From Shinella sp. CPCC 101442 (GTDB lineage Bacteria > Pseudomonadota > Alphaproteobacteria > Rhizobiales > Rhizobiaceae), in assembly GCF_024704725.1 (NCBI RefSeq), contig NZ_JALIQS010000001.1:1-64000 (forward strand): a DNA stretch of 64,000 nt, in the 5' to 3' direction. The position numbers were made by a program, and so were the translations under genes. Within the stretch, counting starts at the first letter, position 1; the number at the start of each line of letters is the position of its first letter. This document shows positions 32,475-39,372 of the stretch, one piece after another. The notes under the pieces are model-generated. The model saw only the letters and a list, made by a program, of their open reading frames with translations. It made no database searches and was not told where the DNA came from.

Positions 32475-32823
32475 AATAGCCCCTAGTTTCGTAGACATCC
32501 TCGCGTTACGTTTTCTGCTGCTCTTCGAACACGTCCTGCCTGGCGTCGTCTCTTGCACGATAGACCTTTCGGCCTATCCGCTCCCGCTTCAGCAGATTGA
32601 AGACGCTCTCAGCCACGGCATTGTCATGATAGTTGCCACATCGGCTCACCGAATGAACCAGATTGTGGTGCTTCAAGAACGATGCCCGGTCCATACCGAC
32701 AAGACCGTGCCGAAGGTGGTCGATGGCATGATCGTTGAAGCGCATGGCCTCGGCGACGGCCTGACGGCGATGATGCAACTCGAGCTGATCCGGAAGGCCT
32801 GATAGCGCGGCCCTGTTGGGCAC
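32475..32823 (-). mobile_element. IS3-family transposase remnant (3' end)
   Basis: The minus strand encodes the end of an IS3-type OrfB integrase: 'SVSRCGNYHDNAVAESVFN' with the third catalytic acidic residue in 'AVAES', then 'LLKRERIGRKVYRARDDARQ'. After 'DVF' the sequence jumps to 'EEQQKT' and a stop. Intact members have about 20-30 residues (YIE...NP...SPVEF) in between, so an internal deletion is likely. Past the stop the minus strand reads GTCTACGAAACTAGGGGCTA (32478-32497), which looks like the IS end. The N-terminal catalytic half is absent and no partner terminus was found, so it is immobile. Confidence 0.75.
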
Positions 32824-32939: not shown

Positions 32940-32964
32940 TTCGATTCGAGAGCAAGGATCGGAG
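32940..32964 (+). promoter_or_regulatory. Ada-box-like element 1 (upstream of ada)
   Basis: A 25-base element with core GAGAGCAAGGATCGGAG, one of five related copies in this island. It contains GAT-N6-GCAA, matching the A-box/B-box layout (AAT-N6-GCAA) known for E. coli Ada sites. It ends 57 bases before the ada start codon. Confidence 0.75.
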
Positions 32965-33021
32965 TGTGATCAGCGAAGACGGAAAGCAGGATCGCGCCAG
33001 GACAGATTCGAGTGGAAGACC

Positions 33022-34119
33022 ATGGACATGAACATTCGCCCCGCATCACCCCTTCGCGTCCAGCACCCTGCCGTAGCGGATGATCCCCGCTGGGCGCTGA
33101 TCGTCGCGCGTGACAAATCCGCCGATGGCCGGCTCTGGTATTCCGTCTCGACAACCGGCGTCTATTGCCGCCCCTCATGTCCGTCACGCACGGCGAATCC
33201 GAAGAACATCACGCTGCACGATACGATCGAAAGCGCGCGGGCGACCGGCTTCCGCCCCTGCCGGCGCTGCAACCCTGATGGTCCTTCGCTCGAATGCGAG
33301 AATGCTTCGCTCGTCGCCAAGGCCTGCCGCCTTATCGAGGAGAGCGAGGACGAACCGTCGCTGGAGGACCTGGCCGCGGCTGTCGAGCGCAGCCCGAGCT
33401 ATTTCCATCGCATCTTCAAGGCATCGACCGGACTGACCCCGAAGGCCTATGCCGCCGGCCATCGTGCGAAAAAGGTGCGTGAGGGTCTCGAAACCGGCAC
33501 GAGCGTCACCGAGGCGATGTATGACGCCGGCTTCAATTCCAGCGGCCGCTTCTATGAGAAGTCAAACGGCATGCTCGGCATGACGCCGACGCAGTATCGC
33601 GAGGGCGGCGTCAATGAGGATATCAAGTTTGCGGTCGGCCAATCCTGCCTCGGCGCGATCCTCGTCGCCTCCAGCGCGAAGGGCGTCGCCTCGATCCTGC
33701 TCGGCGACGACCCGGATGCGCTGGTTCGCGATCTTCAGAATCGCTTTCCCAAGGCGCGCCTGATCGGCATGGACCGCGACTACGAGGCGTTGATCGCCAA
33801 GGTCTGCGGCTTCGTCGAGAATCCGGGCGTCGGCCTCGATCTGCCGCTCGACGTTCGCGGCACGGCCTTCCAGCGGCGGGTATGGCAGGCTCTGCAGGAG
33901 ATCCCCGTCGGCGGGCGCGTATCCTATTCAGACGTTGCCCGCCGCATCGGCTTGCCGAACGCCACGCGGGCCGTCGCCGGCGCGTGCGCGGCAAACAATA
34001 TCGCGGTCGCCATTCCCTGTCATCGTGTGGTGCGCAACGACGGTGCGCTTTCCGGCTACGCATGGGGCGTCGATCGCAAGCGCGTTCTACTCGATCGGGA
34101 AGTGCTCCAGAGCGCATGA
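33022..34119 (+). CDS. ada: bifunctional Ada: alkylation-response activator / O6-alkylguanine-DNA methyltransferase
   Basis: A 365-residue full-length Ada starting MDMNIRPASPLRV at 33022 (frame open to 32878, but that stretch holds the Ada box). N-terminal zinc/phosphotriester domain with Cys49, Cys53, Cys80 and Cys83 ('GVYCRPSC' and 'GFRPCRRC'), where the first Cys accepts methyl from phosphotriesters. Then an AraC-type HTH pair (about 95-195, 'SPSYFHRIFKASTGLTPKAY') and the C-terminal methyltransferase with Cys333 in 'AIPCHRVVRNDGALSGY'. When methylated on the N-terminal Cys, Ada activates its own regulon. An Ada-box lies just upstream and alkA follows 19 bases downstream. Confidence 0.95.
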   Translation: MDMNIRPASPLRVQHPAVADDPRWALIVARDKSADGRLWYSVSTTGVYCRPSCPSRTANPKNITLHDTIESARATGFRPCRRCNPDGPSLECENASLVAKACRLIEESEDEPSLEDLAAAVERSPSYFHRIFKASTGLTPKAYAAGHRAKKVREGLETGTSVTEAMYDAGFNSSGRFYEKSNGMLGMTPTQYREGGVNEDIKFAVGQSCLGAILVASSAKGVASILLGDDPDALVRDLQNRFPKARLIGMDRDYEALIAKVCGFVENPGVGLDLPLDVRGTAFQRRVWQALQEIPVGGRVSYSDVARRIGLPNATRAVAGACAANNIAVAIPCHRVVRNDGALSGYAWGVDRKRVLLDREVLQSA

Positions 34120-34138
34120 CGTCACCGGAAAGAGACAT

Positions 34139-34780
34139 ATGAGCCCCTTTTCACGCTACGACGACTCCGTTGCCTTTCTCTCCAGCCATGACGACGACTG
34201 GGCCAGATTGATCGAACTGGTCGGCCCCTGCCGGCACGATCCCAAAGCAGCCCGGGAGCCCTACGAAGCGCTCGTCCGGGCGATCGCCTACCAGCAACTG
34301 ACGGCAAAGGCCGGCGATGCGATCATCGGCCGGCTCAAGGGATTGTTCGACGGCCGCGATTTTCCAACCCCGGAAGATCTCAGTGCGGCGGAATTCGACC
34401 CGCTTCGCGCCTGTGGCTTCTCGGGCAGCAAGATCGCCACCATCAAAGCGATCGCGCAAGGGACGATTGACGGCCTCATCCCCACCCGCGACGTCGCCGT
34501 CACAATGGACGACGAGGCGCTGATCGAGCGCATGGTTGTCATCAAGGGCATCGGCCGCTGGACCGTCGAGATGCTGCTGATGTATTCGCTGGAGCGGAGG
34601 GACGTCCTGCCCGCCGACGATTTCGGCGTTCGCGAAGGCTACCGTGTGCTGAAATCGCTACCCGAACAGCCGAAGCCCAAGGCGCTGCGCGAACTCTCCA
34701 GGATCTGGTCGCCTCATCGTACGGTCGCGGCCTGGTATCTCTGGCGCATCCCGCGCGAGCGCGGCAACGTGTTGACGTAG
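34139..34780 (+). CDS. alkA: DNA-3-methyladenine glycosylase II
   Basis: A 213-residue HhH-GPD glycosylase starting MSPFSRYDDSVAFL at 34139 (frame open to 33935 inside ada; rejected). Helix-hairpin-helix 'VVIKGIGRWTVEM' (133-145) and the catalytic Asp in 'LPADDFGVREGY' (160/161). 'IAYQQLTAKAGDAI' is the typical N-terminal helix. It lacks the extra N-terminal domain of E. coli AlkA, as is common in alphaproteobacteria. It removes 3-methyladenine and related lesions. It is second gene of the ada operon. Confidence 0.93.
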   Translation: MSPFSRYDDSVAFLSSHDDDWARLIELVGPCRHDPKAAREPYEALVRAIAYQQLTAKAGDAIIGRLKGLFDGRDFPTPEDLSAAEFDPLRACGFSGSKIATIKAIAQGTIDGLIPTRDVAVTMDDEALIERMVVIKGIGRWTVEMLLMYSLERRDVLPADDFGVREGYRVLKSLPEQPKPKALRELSRIWSPHRTVAAWYLWRIPRERGNVLT

Positions 34781-34802
34781 ATACGGCTCCGGGAAGAACG
34801 CC

Positions 34803-35453
34803 ATGCCGCGTCAAAATCGCGTTACGCCCTACGGTAGCATCGTCGCCATTTCTCAGCGCGGCCTTTTCACAGGCAATCGCGGCATCATTCACGACCCTGT
34901 GACGCAGACGTTGTTGCGGAGGCACTGGACGACGCGAGCCTGGCTCGTCTGCACCTGCGATTTCAAGGGGCGCCGACGGAATGTGATGGCCGGCCGGAGC
35001 TGGACCGAGTTGTTTTTCCTCGACGAGGCCGTGGCGCTGGCTGCCGGTCACCGCCCCTGCTTCCTCTGCCGGCGCGAAGCTGCGGAACGGTTCCGGACGT
35101 GCTGGGCATCGGCCAGAGCCGAGCCGCCGCCCTCCGCCAAACAGATGGATGCCGTATTGCATGCCGAGCGCCTCGAGCATGGCCGCAAGCGCCTGCATCC
35201 GTTGAAGCTGCTGCTGTCCGATCTGCCTGACGGTGCAGTCGTTGCCCTGGATGGCTATGCCTACACGCTTTGCGCCGGTCTGGCCTATCGCTGGACCGAC
35301 AACGGATATGGCCGTGCCCGGGTTCTTCACGATGCGGACTGGCTGCTGACGCCGCCGTCCACCGTCATGGCGTTCTTCGCGGGCTACAGACCCATTCTTC
35401 ACCCTTCGATCAACCCGTCACCTGACAGGCCCGACGATGCCCGACCTTTTTGA
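34803..35453 (+). CDS. conserved uncharacterised protein with Ada-like CxC...RPCxxC motif
   Basis: A 216-residue protein I recognise only as a conserved hypothetical family. It carries 'LVCTCDFKGRRRNVM' (Cys50, Cys52) and 'ALAAGHRPCFLCRREAAERF' (Cys86, Cys89). The block 'ELFFLDEAVALAAGHRPC' followed by 'FLCRR' closely mimics the zinc half of Ada's phosphotriester domain ('FF..A..A..AGFRPC..C'). No membrane segment or signal. It sits between alkA and alkB, overlapping alkB by 17 bases, so it belongs to the alkylation operon. A zinc-bound alkyl acceptor, sensor or nucleic-acid-binding protein is possible. The function is unknown and the Ada link is inference from motif and context. Confidence 0.8.
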   Translation: MPRQNRVTPYGSIVAISQRGLFTGNRGIIHDPVTQTLLRRHWTTRAWLVCTCDFKGRRRNVMAGRSWTELFFLDEAVALAAGHRPCFLCRREAAERFRTCWASARAEPPPSAKQMDAVLHAERLEHGRKRLHPLKLLLSDLPDGAVVALDGYAYTLCAGLAYRWTDNGYGRARVLHDADWLLTPPSTVMAFFAGYRPILHPSINPSPDRPDDARPF

Positions 35454-36087
35454 CACGCTCGTACCAACCTCGCCCGAAACCGAGGTCATGGCGGACGGCG
35501 CGCTGTTGCTGCGCGCAGTGGCCCTGCCCTACGAAAAGGATCTGCTGGCCGCGCTCGGCGACATTGTCGCCCACTCACCCTTCCGGCACATGGTCACACC
35601 CGGCGGCTTCACCATGTCCGTCGCGATGACGAATTGCGGGGCGGCCGGCTGGGTTACGGACCGCACCGGCTATCGCTACGACCGCAATGATCCCGCAAGC
35701 GGACGACCGTGGCCTTCCATGCCGAAATGCTTCTTCGACCTGGCGGTCGATGCGGCGACACGGGCCGGCTATCCCGATTTTCGCCCGGACGCCTGCCTGA
35801 TCAACCGTTACGAGCCCGGCGCCCGCCTTTCGCTGCACCAGGACAAGAACGAGCGCGACTTCGCCAATCCGATCGTGTCGGTATCGCTCGGCCTGCCGGC
35901 GACATTCCAGTTCGGAGGCCTGAAGCGGAACGATCCCGTGAGGAAATATGCGCTGCGGCACGGCGATGTAGCCGTCTGGGGCGGCCCGTCGCGGCTCTTC
36001 CATCACGGCGTTCCCGAATTGAGGGACGGCATCCATGAGACCGTCGGGCGGATGCGCATCAACCTCACCTTTCGAGGCGCTCTATAG
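35437..36087 (+). CDS. alkB: AlkB 2-oxoglutarate/Fe(II)-dependent alkylated-DNA dioxygenase
   Basis: A 216-residue AlkB of normal length. Iron facial triad His134/Asp136 ('LSLHQDKNERDF') and His190 ('FHHGV'); 2-oxoglutarate Arg207 and Arg213 ('RINLTFR'); 'GYRYDRNDP' is the nucleotide-recognition lid region. It oxidatively demethylates 1-methyladenine and 3-methylcytosine. The start overlaps the preceding Cys-rich protein gene by 17 bases, giving operon order ada-alkA-unknown-alkB. Confidence 0.95.
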   Translation: MPDLFDTLVPTSPETEVMADGALLLRAVALPYEKDLLAALGDIVAHSPFRHMVTPGGFTMSVAMTNCGAAGWVTDRTGYRYDRNDPASGRPWPSMPKCFFDLAVDAATRAGYPDFRPDACLINRYEPGARLSLHQDKNERDFANPIVSVSLGLPATFQFGGLKRNDPVRKYALRHGDVAVWGGPSRLFHHGVPELRDGIHETVGRMRINLTFRGAL

Positions 36088-36101
36088 CACCCCGATCTTC
36101 T

Positions 36102-36126
36102 TTCAGTTTGGCGACAACAATCGGAG
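36102..36126 (+). promoter_or_regulatory. Ada-box-like element 5 (degenerate)
   Basis: A 25-base match to the other boxes: starts TTCAGTTTGG and ends ACAACAATCGGAG. The A-box is changed (AGT-N6-ACAA). It lies 15 bases after alkB and 113 bases before the small gene at 36240, so its activity is less certain than that of boxes 1-4. Confidence 0.5.
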
Positions 36127-36239
36127 TGCCGCCGGAGCCGCCTTATGGCCAGGTATGTCGTTCATCGGGGGGCGACAGGCGATCGTCGGATTTCGAAAAT
36201 CTGCTCGCCGCAACGACCGAAGCAAGGAAGCCGACGCTC

Positions 36240-36488
36240 ATGTTTTCGCGAGGCGGATTCAGCGCCAGGGCGGGCCGGTGCAGACGGTCCGAAACCAGCG
36301 CCATCGACATGCTCGTTGCAGGTGCCCGGGGCAACCCGGACAAGACATTCGTGACGACCTATATCGGCCAGCTCGTGGTCGCCGGCTATGCCGAACTGCA
36401 AATGCTCGACAATGGAGAGTTCGAAATCCGCTTCGCCTCCGGCGAGACCTATCTTCTCGCAGAAACGGCGATCCTCAGGCTCGCTTGA
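36240..36488 (+). CDS. small hypothetical protein in the Ada island
   Basis: An 82-residue product starting MFSRGGFSARAGRCRRSETS, with AAGGAAG nine bases upstream of the ATG. The frame is open further upstream (to 36108) without a convincing start. The C-terminal 50 residues ('TYIGQLVVAGYAELQML..GEFEIRF') look like a compact beta-rich domain. No family recognised. A degenerate Ada-box precedes it and an Ada-box-controlled methyltransferase follows, so it may be part of the alkylation response. Confidence 0.55.
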   Translation: MFSRGGFSARAGRCRRSETSAIDMLVAGARGNPDKTFVTTYIGQLVVAGYAELQMLDNGEFEIRFASGETYLLAETAILRLA

Positions 36489-36595
36489 TGCGGCAACCAG
36501 CCGGAACGCCGCGCGTGAGCGGGTGGTGTGGCTCGAAACTCTATTCGTAGGTCGAGCGCAGCAGCGCGGCATTTTTTCCGCGCCTCAGAACAAAC

Positions 36596-36620
36596 TTCAA
36601 TTTGAAAACAAGGATCGGAG
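36596..36620 (+). promoter_or_regulatory. Ada-box-like element 2 (upstream of second methyltransferase)
   Basis: Starts TTCAATTTGAAAACAAGG and ends ATCGGAG. It contains AAT-N6-ACAA, differing from the E. coli AAT-N6-GCAA box only at the first B-box base. It ends 60 bases before the ATG at 36681, the same distance as boxes 1, 3 and 4 to their genes. Confidence 0.75.
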
Positions 36621-36680
36621 TTCGGGGGATCGGCGAAGGACATAGGTTCGACCGTGAAGACGAAACAAGGAGATACGGTG

Positions 36681-37247
36681 ATGAATTGCATGATCGGAAC
36701 CGACACGCTGCGGCCGGATCCACTGGCCAACGTCACGCCAACGGCGGCCGACGTTCTTTCCTACGCGATCGCCGACTGCGAACTCGGAAAGGTGCTGATC
36801 GCGCGAAGCACGAAGGGTGTCTGCGCGATCCTGCTGGGCATCGACGCCGGGGAACTGGCGGCGGATCTTGCCGCTCGCTTCCCGCAGTCAACGCTCGTTG
36901 CGAGCGAGGCTATGGCAAAGGACGATGTAGCAAGGGTTCTGCGCTATATCGCAAAGCCCGCCAACGGCCTGCAGCTGACGCTCGACACGCGCGGCACGCC
37001 GTTCCAGCGCCGCGTCTGGGAAAAGCTGCAGACCATCGCCGTCGGCCGCAGGGTGACCTATACGGAACTCGCCCATTGGCTGAGCCCCTTCTCGCATCCA
37101 CGCGCCGTCGCGGCCGCCTGTGCCGCCAATCCGATCGCGCTTGCCATTCCGTGCCATCGCGTGGTGCGCAGCAACGGCGCGCTCTCCGGCTATCGCTGGG
37201 GGCTCGAGCGCAAGCGCATCCTCATCGAGAAGGAAACCTCGGCATGA
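36681..37247 (+). CDS. methylated-DNA--[protein]-cysteine S-methyltransferase, Ada C-domain-like
   Basis: A 188-residue methyltransferase. The ATG at 36681 is eight bases after AAGGAG; GTG 36678 is a close alternative. Active-site Cys158 in 'AIPCHRVVRSNGALSGYRWG'. The N-terminal part 'LSYAIADCELGKVLIARSTK' resembles the region just before the methyltransferase domain of the ada gene here ('IKFAVGQSCLGAILVASSAK'), so it looks like a stand-alone copy of the Ada C-terminal half. It removes methyl groups from O6-methylguanine. It overlaps the following dioxygenase gene by four bases. Confidence 0.92.
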   Translation: MNCMIGTDTLRPDPLANVTPTAADVLSYAIADCELGKVLIARSTKGVCAILLGIDAGELAADLAARFPQSTLVASEAMAKDDVARVLRYIAKPANGLQLTLDTRGTPFQRRVWEKLQTIAVGRRVTYTELAHWLSPFSHPRAVAAACAANPIALAIPCHRVVRSNGALSGYRWGLERKRILIEKETSA

Positions 37248-37993
37248 ACACGTCTGCGATCGATAGGGTTCCAGCCTCCGCGAATGCATCCCCGGAGGCA
37301 CGGATTGCCGCCTATGACTGGAAGGCGCTCGACGGCGAGCTCGACGGCTTCGGCTGCGCCGTTCTTCCCCGTCTTCTCACATCGGAGGAATGCAGCAGCG
37401 TTGCGTCGCTCTATCCAGACCAAAGCCATTTCCGCAGCCATGTCATCATGGCGCGACATGGTTTCGGAAAGGGCGAATATCGCTATTTCAAATATCCGTT
37501 GCCCGATCTCATCGACGGCATGCGCACGGCGCTCTACCCACGCCTTGCCGAAGTCGCCAATGCCTGGAACGAGCGGATGGGACTGGAACAACGTTTCCCC
37601 GGCGAGCACGCCGCATTCCTGCGGCAATGCCACAACGCAGGCCAGACCCGACCGACGCCGCTCCTGCTGCAATATGTCCCCGGGGACTTCAACTGCCTTC
37701 ACCAGGACCTTTACGGCGACCTTGCCTTTCCGATCCAGGTGGCGATCCTGCTGTCCGAGCCGGGCCGCGACTTCAGCGGCGGCGAATTCGCGCTGACCGA
37801 ACAGCGGCCGCGCATGCAGAGCCGCGTCGAGGTGGTACCGCTTCGTCAGGGCGACGCCGTCGCCTTCGCCGTTCATAACCGTCCGGTCCAGGGGACGAAG
37901 GGAAACTACCGCGTGAACCTGCGCCACGGGGTGAGCCGCATCCGCTCCGGCATGCGCCATACCGTCGGGATCATTTTTCACGACGCACGATGA
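37244..37993 (+). CDS. 2OG-Fe(II) oxygenase of the alkylation island
   Basis: A 249-residue protein translationally coupled to the methyltransferase (ATGA). The long in-frame opening from 36602 lies over the methyltransferase and is spurious. Jelly-roll oxygenase signature: His153-x-Asp155 in 'FNCLHQDLYGDLAFP', a distal His candidate at 211 ('FAVHNRPV') or 228 ('LRHGVSRIRSG'), and a 2-oxoglutarate Arg in the C-terminal part. 'LEQRFPGEHAAFLRQCHNAG' precedes the core. It is not AlkB-like in the lid region. Its association with an Ada-box suggests a repair or adaptive-response role, perhaps on an alkylated substrate other than ordinary AlkB lesions (inference). Confidence 0.85.
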   Translation: MNTSAIDRVPASANASPEARIAAYDWKALDGELDGFGCAVLPRLLTSEECSSVASLYPDQSHFRSHVIMARHGFGKGEYRYFKYPLPDLIDGMRTALYPRLAEVANAWNERMGLEQRFPGEHAAFLRQCHNAGQTRPTPLLLQYVPGDFNCLHQDLYGDLAFPIQVAILLSEPGRDFSGGEFALTEQRPRMQSRVEVVPLRQGDAVAFAVHNRPVQGTKGNYRVNLRHGVSRIRSGMRHTVGIIFHDAR

Positions 37994-38015
37994 CAGTGCA
38001 AAGCCGGCGTCGTGA

Positions 38016-38192
38016 TCACCGCGGCGCCGGGCGCCTTTGCAAAGTACGACGAATGTTCTGATCGCTGCCGGCCAGTGCAGACCATCGTCGCTGCCAGCCG
38101 GGATCAAGCGCATAGAGCCGGGCCCAATCCTCGAATGTGCCGCCAGCGCGCATACAGGCAATCGCCTCGGCTGCGTGCCAGGTGCATGGCAC
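38016..38192 (-). CDS. small uncharacterised ORF or gene remnant downstream of the third methyltransferase
   Basis: The 250-base space between the oxygenase and the minus-strand methyltransferase has one coding-like frame on the minus strand, open from 38213 to a stop at 38016-38018. It contains 'AAEAIACMRAGGTFEDWARL' and 'YALDPGWQRRWSAL', with high GC at third positions. A GTG at 38192 is the only plausible early start (58 residues) and no ribosome site is clear. It could be the C-terminal end of a lost gene. No family recognised. Confidence 0.35.
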   Translation of the reverse strand: MPCTWHAAEAIACMRAGGTFEDWARLYALDPGWQRRWSALAGSDQNIRRTLQRRPAPR

Positions 38193-38243
38193 GTGCCGCA
38201 GCCAGACACGGACTCAATCGACAGCCGGATGACCTGCAGCGGT

Positions 38244-38777
38244 TCAGCCGTGGGAACATCCGGCATCTCGCTCCCCCGTGGCGTGCTGCTCGCGCACCAG
38301 AAGCGCCCGCTTACGCCGGACACCCCATCGATAGCCGGAAATCGAGCCGTCCTTCTTGATGACCCGATGGCACGGCACGATCACGGCGATCGGGTTGCTG
38401 GCGATCGCAGCCGTCACGTCCCGCGGATCGCGCGAGCCGAGCTTGGCCGCGAGCGTCCCATAATTCGTGGTCTGGCCGGCGGGAATTTCCTGCAACAGGC
38501 GCCAGACCTGCACCTCATACGGTGTCCCGCGCAGATCGAGCGAGAGATCGCACGCCCGCGCCGGGTCGTCGATCACGCCGCCAACGATGTCGATCACGCT
38601 GGCGAGTTCCTGCTGGCCGGGTTCGAGTGCGGCTTCCGGAAAACGGGTGCGCAGCGCGTCTTCCATCGCGATGCGGGTCGCGCTGAATTCGAGCGCCACG
38701 ATCCCCTTGTCCGACACGGCGGCGACAAAGTCTCCAAGGGAGCTATCTCCCCATGCAAATCGAATAGTTTCACGCAT
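38244..38777 (-). CDS. ogt: methylated-DNA--[protein]-cysteine S-methyltransferase (Ogt-like)
   Basis: A 177-residue third O6-alkylguanine methyltransferase of the window. The start is the ATG at 38777, preceded by AGGAGG at eight bases; the opening to 38990 has no site and covers the Ada box. 'RGTPYEVQVWRLLQEIPAGQ' and the active-site Cys136 in 'VIVPCHRVIKKDGSISGYRW'. It is divergent from the plus-strand gene at 38983, with one Ada-box on each side of the shared control region. Confidence 0.93.
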   Translation of the reverse strand: MRETIRFAWGDSSLGDFVAAVSDKGIVALEFSATRIAMEDALRTRFPEAALEPGQQELASVIDIVGGVIDDPARACDLSLDLRGTPYEVQVWRLLQEIPAGQTTNYGTLAAKLGSRDPRDVTAAIASNPIAVIVPCHRVIKKDGSISGYRWGVRRKRALLVREQHATGERDAGCSHG

Positions 38778-38836
38778 CGTCCTGACCTCCTTCGTTCGCT
38801 GTGAAACGAGCTTAGAAGGCGATGTGCTGCCTGACG

Positions 38837-38861
38837 CTCCGATCCTTGCTTCCAAATCAAA
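38837..38861 (-). promoter_or_regulatory. Ada-box-like element 3 (minus strand, for ogt)
   Basis: Read on the minus strand it starts TTTGATTTGGAAGCAAGG and ends ATCGGAG. It contains GAT-N6-GCAA, one base from the E. coli consensus. It ends 59 bases before the ogt start codon. Confidence 0.75.
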
Positions 38862-38900
38862 TATCGGTCGGTGGCATCTCTTTCGGTGCGGACACCAATT

Positions 38901-38925
38901 TTCGATTTGAAAGCAATATTCGGAG
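38901..38925 (+). promoter_or_regulatory. Ada-box-like element 4 (plus strand)
   Basis: Starts TTCGATTTGAAAGCAATA and ends TTCGGAG, with GAT-N6-GCAA. It ends 57 bases before the ATG at 38983. It diverges from box 3, with 39 bases between the two elements. Confidence 0.7.
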
Positions 38926-38982
38926 CGCATTTGCCCGAACAGCAACCGTATCGTCGGTGACAGAAGCGCGATGGAGCAGCAA

Positions 38983-39372
38983 ATGAACATCCCAGATATC
39001 TACGATCCGCAAGAGCTTGGCCTCCGACAGCAGATGGCGGCAGCACGCCGCCAGCGCGAGAGCGCGCGCTTGGCATTGCTCGCAAACCTCGTTGATGCAC
39101 AACGGCGCGCGGACGGATTGCAGCGCTGGATCAGCGCCTATGCCCGTCCGGTGGACGACAGTTCGCATCCCGAATTGGGGCGGATGGTCGAATGGGTGGC
39201 CGCCCAGATCAACGATCTCGAACACGTCCTCGGCCCGGATCGGATCTCCGAGACGTTGCGGGCGCGGGCGCTCTTTCCGGACGTTGATCCGCTCGATGAC
39301 CCCAAGGGCGAGCCGCCCCGGCATCGTATCTGGGGGCACTCCGCAGCACTCAGATACGTCAATGCGGTGTGA
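38983..39372 (+). CDS. hypothetical helical protein with upstream Ada-box
   Basis: A 129-residue product from the ATG at 38983 (GGAG six bases upstream; ATG 38971 is an alternative adding four residues). Residues about 8-45 ('LGLRQQMAAARRQRESARLA') are strongly helical and perhaps coiled. The rest is charged and ends 'HRIWGHSAALRYVNAV'. No Cys, no signal, no recognised family. Control by an Ada-box facing ogt suggests it is induced by alkylation damage. Confidence 0.65.
   Translation: MNIPDIYDPQELGLRQQMAAARRQRESARLALLANLVDAQRRADGLQRWISAYARPVDDSSHPELGRMVEWVAAQINDLEHVLGPDRISETLRARALFPDVDPLDDPKGEPPRHRIWGHSAALRYVNAV

Follow-up and report, generated by a model that had tools for sequence, protein, structure and literature searches.

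Genes and boxes of the ada island

Ada is the textbook switch of the response to methylation damage, and its reference operator is that of Escherichia coli, which consists of an A box (AAT) and a B box (GCAA), with Cys38 as the switch residue of the protein. Here we describe an ada island in a 64,000-nucleotide stretch of Shinella sp. CPCC 101442 (contig NZ_JALIQS010000001.1, positions 1 to 64,000), hereafter the window, in which four strong Ada boxes, each followed by a third element, stand before ada and other genes.

The ada gene (33022–34119, plus strand) encodes a protein with a PF02805 zinc domain (E 7.4e-28) in which Cys49, Cys53, Cys80 and Cys83 are all present, an AraC-type double helix-turn-helix (HTH; PF12833) and an MGMT domain (PF01035) that keeps its PCHR motif. 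It matches NF011964 with 421 bits against a cut-off of 345, and Arg176 lies within the second HTH (HTH2), in the local motif RFYE. Downstream on the same strand are an alkA-like gene of the HhH-GPD glycosylase type (34139–34780), which scores 47 bits for NCBIfam NF007641, far under the cut-off of 229; a gene for a 216-residue protein (34803–35453) with no Pfam or NCBIfam match; and alkB, encoding a dioxygenase (35437–36087; NF011930, 344 bits, cut-off 267). The 216-residue protein has matches in 72 of 199 genomes of the order, its own genome counted, and its homologues in G613, G073 and G492 are encoded far from ada. Next come MT2 (36681–37247, plus), identified by family matches as a second O6-methylguanine methyltransferase that resembles the C-terminal half of Ada, and a PF09859 2OG-Fe(II) oxygenase gene (37244–37993, plus; E 2.3e-85) whose start overlaps the end of MT2. 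Finally, an ogt-type methyltransferase gene (38244–38777, minus; family matches) is divergent from a gene for a rare 129-residue protein of no assigned family (38983–39372, plus), matched in 7 of 199 genomes of the order, its own included, with three matches holding a stop codon. Just upstream of ada, an open reading frame on the minus strand (32506–32823) resembles, by eye, the last part of an IS3-type transposase; a Pfam scan of it gave no hit.

All five of the 25-base elements listed by a first-pass annotation of this DNA were recovered, and the layout that it had ascribed to them, (A/G)AT-N6-(G/A)CAA, holds for four; the element at 36102 has AGT. Positions along a box are indexed here from the first A-box base (index 0), with the CGG triplet that follows the B box (the X box) at index 17–19 and the start of the −10 element at index 44. 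Operator 1 (32943–32964, plus; GAT, GCAA, CGG) precedes ada and has its −10, CAGGAT, at 32987–32992; its A and B boxes, GAT-N6-GCAA, are one letter off the AAT of the E. coli type. Operator 2 (36599–36620, plus; AAT, ACAA, CGG), the only one of the four with ACAA, precedes MT2 and is followed by TAGGTT at 36643–36648. Operator 3 (38837–38858, minus; GAT, GCAA, CGG) precedes ogt with a −10 of TAAGCT, and operator 4 (38904–38925, plus; GAT, GCAA, CGG), divergent from it, precedes the 129-residue gene with a possible −10 of TATCGT. An xAnnnT sequence therefore stands at the consensus −10 place in three of the four operators and one base further in operator 4, where the spacer is one base longer. 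The boxes end 57 bp before the ATG of ada (33022), 60 bp before that of MT2 (36681), 59 bp before that of ogt (38777, minus) and 57 bp before that of the 129-residue gene (38983), as counted on the sequence with start codons picked by the analyst, which bears out the spacing of 57–60 bp proposed earlier. Divergent operator pairs between outward-facing genes were observed in the window (38837–38925) and in two relatives (L260:5411–5495 and L253:11934–12121).

Such a set of sites is not expected by chance. The pattern RATN6RCAAN4CGGAG occurs four times in the window against 0.10 expected, and RCAAN3TCGGAG five times against 0.37; none of 100 shuffles reached four or five matches, respectively. 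A weight matrix trained on 118 promoters, that of the window's ada not among them, gave operators 1 to 4 scores of 38.8, 34.6, 35.0 and 21.8 bits, whereas the top score in 60 simulated 64-kb sequences was 16.6. The fifth element (36105–36126, plus; AGT, ACAA, CGGAG) scored 7.9 bits, and the simulated sequences held a mean of 0.30 sites over 8 bits. It was rejected as a working operator on account of its AGT in place of RAT, its position before none of the four genes, the lack of a −10 at the usual place and its low score, and may be a chance or decayed look-alike. Genome-wide, a loose pattern with one mismatch matched 52 times against 49 for the reversed control, and hence gives no signal outside the island. 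Exact-pattern sites outside it in the same genome lie at G000:C4:456166 and C4:469360; the former is antisense within a 401-codon open reading frame, has no −10 at the usual place and was taken as chance.

A third element beside the inferred −35

The letters downstream of the B box were read in two sets of promoters after the boxes had been located by their A and B letters alone. The first set comprised 96 promoters of Adas with four zinc cysteines and the HTH2 arginine, taken from family, class and phylum samples. A clear A+B box was found in 48 of them; of these 48 boxes, 43 have CGG at a distance of exactly 4 nt from GCAA, and none has it at offsets 3 or 5–10. The second set consisted of 80 named loci from GTDB species genomes, partly the same as the first (the two overlap at least at L288/G086 and L292/G664), several of them metagenome assemblies whose labels are possibly wrong. 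Here 63 loci gave an A+B box, with CGG at +4 in 58 and at offsets 0–3 and 5–10 in none of the 63. The named taxa with CGG in this place include Alpha-, Beta- and Gammaproteobacteria, two Acidobacteria assemblies and one Myxococcota assembly, and a Syntrophobacter assembly has CGG with a weak A box. Promoters of other Ada types differ: among 32 promoters of zinc-less Adas an A+B box was found in one, without CGG at +4, and among 21 promoters of Adas with Gly or Ala at the HTH2 place (mostly the type b described below) it was found in two, with CGG at +4 in neither.

Pooling 119 distinct promoters located by AAT or GAT plus GCAA gave C, G and G at index 17–19 in 97% each and G at index 23 in 96%; the first A-box letter is G in 26%. 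The −10 is marked by T at index 44 (64%), A at index 45 (93%) and T at index 49 (84%). In the named set, xAnnnT begins at index 44 in 57 of 63 promoters, and at index 43 or 45 in three and two, respectively. A spacer of 17 bp, if assumed, places the −35 hexamer at index 21–26, starting two bases after CGG, and CGGAGTG can therefore be read as the X box together with the first bases of the −35. The conserved block GGATCGGAG noted earlier downstream of the boxes accordingly resolves, to judge from its letters, into spacer and X box, running into the −35. Two origins had been offered for that block. A lineage-specific extension finds no support, since the sampled Alpha-, Beta- and Gammaproteobacteria usually have CGG 4 nt after GCAA, and the Acidobacteria and Myxococcota assemblies show it too, while E. 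coli lacks it. A promoter element is half right: AGTG runs into the inferred −35, but CGG is the counterpart of the Caulobacter Cada2 X box (PMC10957082). Adjoining the B box there is a further conserved element, and not A+B only as in the E. coli-type definition. At the level of sequence, conservation of this three-part anatomy upstream of ada extends to many bacteria with an Ada that combines the zinc domain and the HTH2 arginine, and for these operators the A/B-box description drawn from E. coli is incomplete.

It could be argued that CGGAGTG is nothing but a promoter element read by sigma factor and that Ada, following the E. coli description, contacts only A and B. AGTG does overlap the inferred −35, and E. 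coli-type promoters, whose Adas have Ser or Asn at the Arg place, keep xAnnnT at index 44 without CGG at +4 in nine of nine cases with a located box (L023 gave no box). Yet CGG itself lies upstream of the −35 hexamer, GCAA-N4-CGG is found before zinc-less ada genes as well, and the AraC-type domain possesses a second reading head in HTH2. Moreover, a scrambled B+X site in Caulobacter, or A+B put in its place, gave no induction (PMC10957082). We regard this explanation as improbable. The same nine promoters contradict a by-eye idea that the E. coli-type −10 lies one helical turn further away. Their X box may be shifted rather than missing, because CGG stands at +5 in six of eight scored boxes; it stands at +6 in one and at +4 in none.

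The presence of X goes together with the HTH2 arginine in raw counts. Among 174 proteins scorable for both traits, CGG is present or absent in 152 and 11 cases with the arginine, and in 1 and 10 without it. These proteins belong to a FastTree phylogeny of 211, built with HTH2 columns kept, that excludes zinc-less proteins, type-b Adas (those with Gly, and those with Ala at less than 38% identity) and L304, which was unaligned; two duplicate rows were dropped. The 11 proteins with Arg but no X are mostly one letter away from CGG, L112 not being among these. When Arg-less Adas were sought in the order of G521 (Enterobacteria, judging from its type of ada), only 6 of 148 genomes yielded matches. 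Arg176 as a proven determinant of X was discarded, as the tree lends these counts no statistical support. Contact between HTH2 and X is inferred from position in the predicted Ada model and from published Cada2 mutants.

Ownership of the sites and the predicted regulon

The four strong boxes very probably act as operators of the Ada that is encoded in the same island. Upon methylating damage, Ada would take a methyl group on Cys49, at the place of E. coli Cys38. The zinc domain would read A, HTH1 would read B, and HTH2, whose recognition helix starts with Arg176, would read X. Reading X would put Ada beside the −35 and so recruit sigma-70 RNA polymerase despite the poor −35 of the promoter. 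The units predicted to be switched on are ada-alkA-orf216-alkB, MT2-oxygenase, ogt and the 129-residue gene.

The earlier assignment of the boxes to an Ada regulon agrees with their first part, which fits AAT-N6-GCAA, and with the recurrence of the motif upstream of ada at all three sampled ranks (family, class and phylum) and in the named set. The first-pass annotation had named a lack of conservation before orthologous repair genes as grounds for refutation; the motif was conserved before ada and, in some relatives, also before MT2, ogt and the PF09859 gene. Matches at E <= 1e-70 occur in 61 of 289 class genomes and 84 of 397 phylum genomes; in the family, the window-type Ada occurs in 15 of 101 sampled genomes (own genome counted each time), and it was not found in G075, the sole other member of the genus sampled. 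A stricter pattern has sites in 17 of the 20 genomes that carry this Ada and in 1 of the 20 that lack it, against 0 and 1 for the reversed control. The comparison is not fully independent, because the pattern was drawn partly from the ada promoters of the same 20 Ada-positive genomes; boxes before other genes are independent of it. For two of the 17 (G085 and G092), the site is not the ada box and may be chance.

This comparison also bears on a second candidate owner. The same genome encodes two further Adas, a second zinc-type protein (G000:C1:1030195) and a zinc-less, Cada2-like one (G000:C4:121392–122186) with an RLHD motif, and the latter could own the boxes by reading B and X only, the A box being incidental. 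In the family sample, GCAA-N4-CGG lies upstream of 10 of 32 zinc-less ada genes; GTGG follows it in most, and seven of the ten have T at the equivalent of index 49; two of the ten (L174 and L188) look spurious. Since the B-X geometry is the same, cross-binding by a zinc-less Ada is plausible. However, all 20 genomes without the window-type Ada carry an Ada match lacking the zinc part, and yet only one of them has a site, which argues against such an owner. Promoters of zinc-less ada genes have no A box and mostly CGGGTGG rather than CGGAGTG, whereas all four strong window boxes start with RATT, contrary to an incidental A box. The zinc-less ada of this very genome (L039) has no GCAA-N4-CGG within 420 bp upstream. 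Ownership by the zinc-less protein is thus quite unlikely.

Boxes of this kind also precede a varied set of genes in relatives. L253, of the same order, has seven boxes in 12.2 kb, before ada, ogt, a SnoaL-like gene, a glyoxalase-like gene, a ChaC-like gene followed by MT2, and two genes of no named family. In four genomes of one genus (L254–L257), boxes stand upstream of MT2-oxygenase and of a SnoaL-like gene. A box also precedes a short-chain dehydrogenase gene in L258, L260 and L272, the PF09859 oxygenase gene in L263, and a DUF1203 gene in L265 and in L266, the latter assigned from the resemblance of its initial residues. Possible new branches of the methylation response are the short-chain dehydrogenase, SnoaL-like, ChaC-like and DUF1203 genes, all with predicted Ada operators. 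Among 24 boxes that do not precede ada (3 in the window and 21 in relatives), A occupies index 45 in 20 and TA index 44–45 in 15, and A45 and T49 occur together in 10; no other place across index 26–69 reaches four for TA. Eight of these 24 come from one genus, and the set is what remained of 32 boxes after the ada boxes, the 36105 element, L264 and L259 were dropped.

Several observations weigh against the proposed switch or its generality. The A+B box fell under the threshold in 48 of the 96 promoters of the first set and 17 of the 80 in the named set, although 10 of those 17 loci have CGG at +4 within a box of weaker A or B; nine box-less loci searched again to 2.5 kb upstream gave a box in five and none in four. 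The arginine changes only three times on the tree, leaving two or three independent pairs and a sign test without significance, and for this reason the Arg-X association is not independent evidence. Single proteins break it in both directions, L112 having Arg without CGG and L164 having CGG without Arg. The predicted Ada model has a pTM of 0.49 and a mean pLDDT of 63 for residues 171–180, and structure 1u8b, of N-Ada with DNA, covers model residues 18–150 but not HTH2. The B-X spacer is given as 3 bp in the available part of the Cada2 paper (PMC10957082) and is 4 in the window and in zinc-less promoters of the family. Lastly, the ada genes of Brucella abortus were not induced by methyl methanesulfonate (MMS) in the portion of that study at hand (PMC6813329), so an ada gene alone is no proof of a working response. 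That the island is decayed or acquired, its boxes being conserved through recent descent and its regulon no longer inducible, would suit the patchy distribution of the window-type Ada and the weak 36105 element, but is very unlikely given open ada, alkB, methyltransferase and oxygenase genes that match their families, three boxes with xAnnnT at the consensus place, and spacers that vary between islands while A, B and X stay (in boxes picked by score).

Other Adas show further variation. Seven zinc-type Adas of a 'type b' with about 30–35% identity to the window Ada (L025, L028, L029, L036, L040, L048 and L049) have by eye a common upstream element near AATAGACGCCCGATTTTCG, without GCAA-N4-CGG, which is possibly a third type of Ada operator; the second zinc-type Ada of the window's genome is of this type. 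Proteins with TRALYE in HTH2 (L158, L160, L161, L165, L168, L169 and L171–L173) appear by eye to have a changed operator close to TTTGAAAGTCAGATGCGGATTGGCAG, with CGG mostly kept and the B box altered. In L096–L104, L107 and several named Pseudomonas Adas, many proteins keep the first zinc cysteine and have Ser, Ala or the like at the other three; Pfam still calls the zinc domain in L098, whose cysteine set is degenerate. The notion that a lost zinc domain (C-S-S-A) entails a lost A box failed, as a clear A+B box is still seen in 9 of the 12 promoters of this kind, with X in eight of these nine.

Comparison with known Ada systems

The window resembles the E. coli Ada regulon in its protein family (NF011964 above cut-off), its zinc and MGMT domains, its A and B boxes with a 6-nt gap and the index of xAnnnT, which reads CAGACT in E. 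coli. It differs in the third element beside the inferred −35 and in the boxes before MT2-oxygenase, ogt and the 129-residue gene. The E. coli box has no CGG at +4 or +5 (GCAAGATTGTTGG), and E. coli Ada has Ser at the place of Arg176. With the Caulobacter Cada2 regulon, in which a B box (GCAA) and an X box (CGG) go with an RLHD helix, the window shares the X triplet, an arginine at the aligned HTH2 place, a box before the regulator's own gene and PF01035 (PMC10957082). Cada2 has no zinc domain and no A box and is activated via C-terminal Cys267, whereas the window Ada combines PF02805 with A box and X (PMC10957082). The RLHD motif is not found in the window Ada, which has RFYE; the arginine alone is common to both.

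A 2024 paper split the regulators into readers of A+B and readers of B+X. Here, A, B and X stand together before most ada genes with a locatable box, at a fixed distance from the −10. Among open-licence PMC literature, judged by title or abstract, no paper on A, B and X together was found; as far as this search reaches, the three under one Ada are new as a described combination, but not a new kind of system. They yield a sharper motif for finding Ada regulons and a testable role for HTH2, which is not contained in structure 1u8b.

The Pseudomonas putida alkA-ada promoter, with the box ATT-N6-GCAA, is reported to be induced about 60-fold by MMS, and exchange of its motif with that of E. coli ada failed, to the surprise of the authors (PMC3788762). 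It differs from the window in its operon order, alkA-ada, and the published text, in the part available, names A and B boxes alone (PMC3788762). In P. putida W15Oct28 (L346), a strain other than the published one, a search whose pattern included CGG found ATT-N6-GCAA-N4-CGG with TAAGCT at index 44 upstream of the open reading frame that precedes ada, and the Ada of this strain carries the counterpart of Arg176; the X box is therefore a candidate reason for the failed swap. We lean towards the view that the usual Ada operator of Pseudomonadota is the three-part A-B-X beside the −35, of which the E. coli A-B box would be a derived exception. E. coli Ada and Cada2 would then represent one system with a shared B-X-(−35)-(−10) core for the double HTH to read, the main difference being the presence of the A-reading zinc domain, rather than two designs with exchanged boxes. 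If true, this would offer a reason why the Ada motifs of E. coli and P. putida are not swappable.

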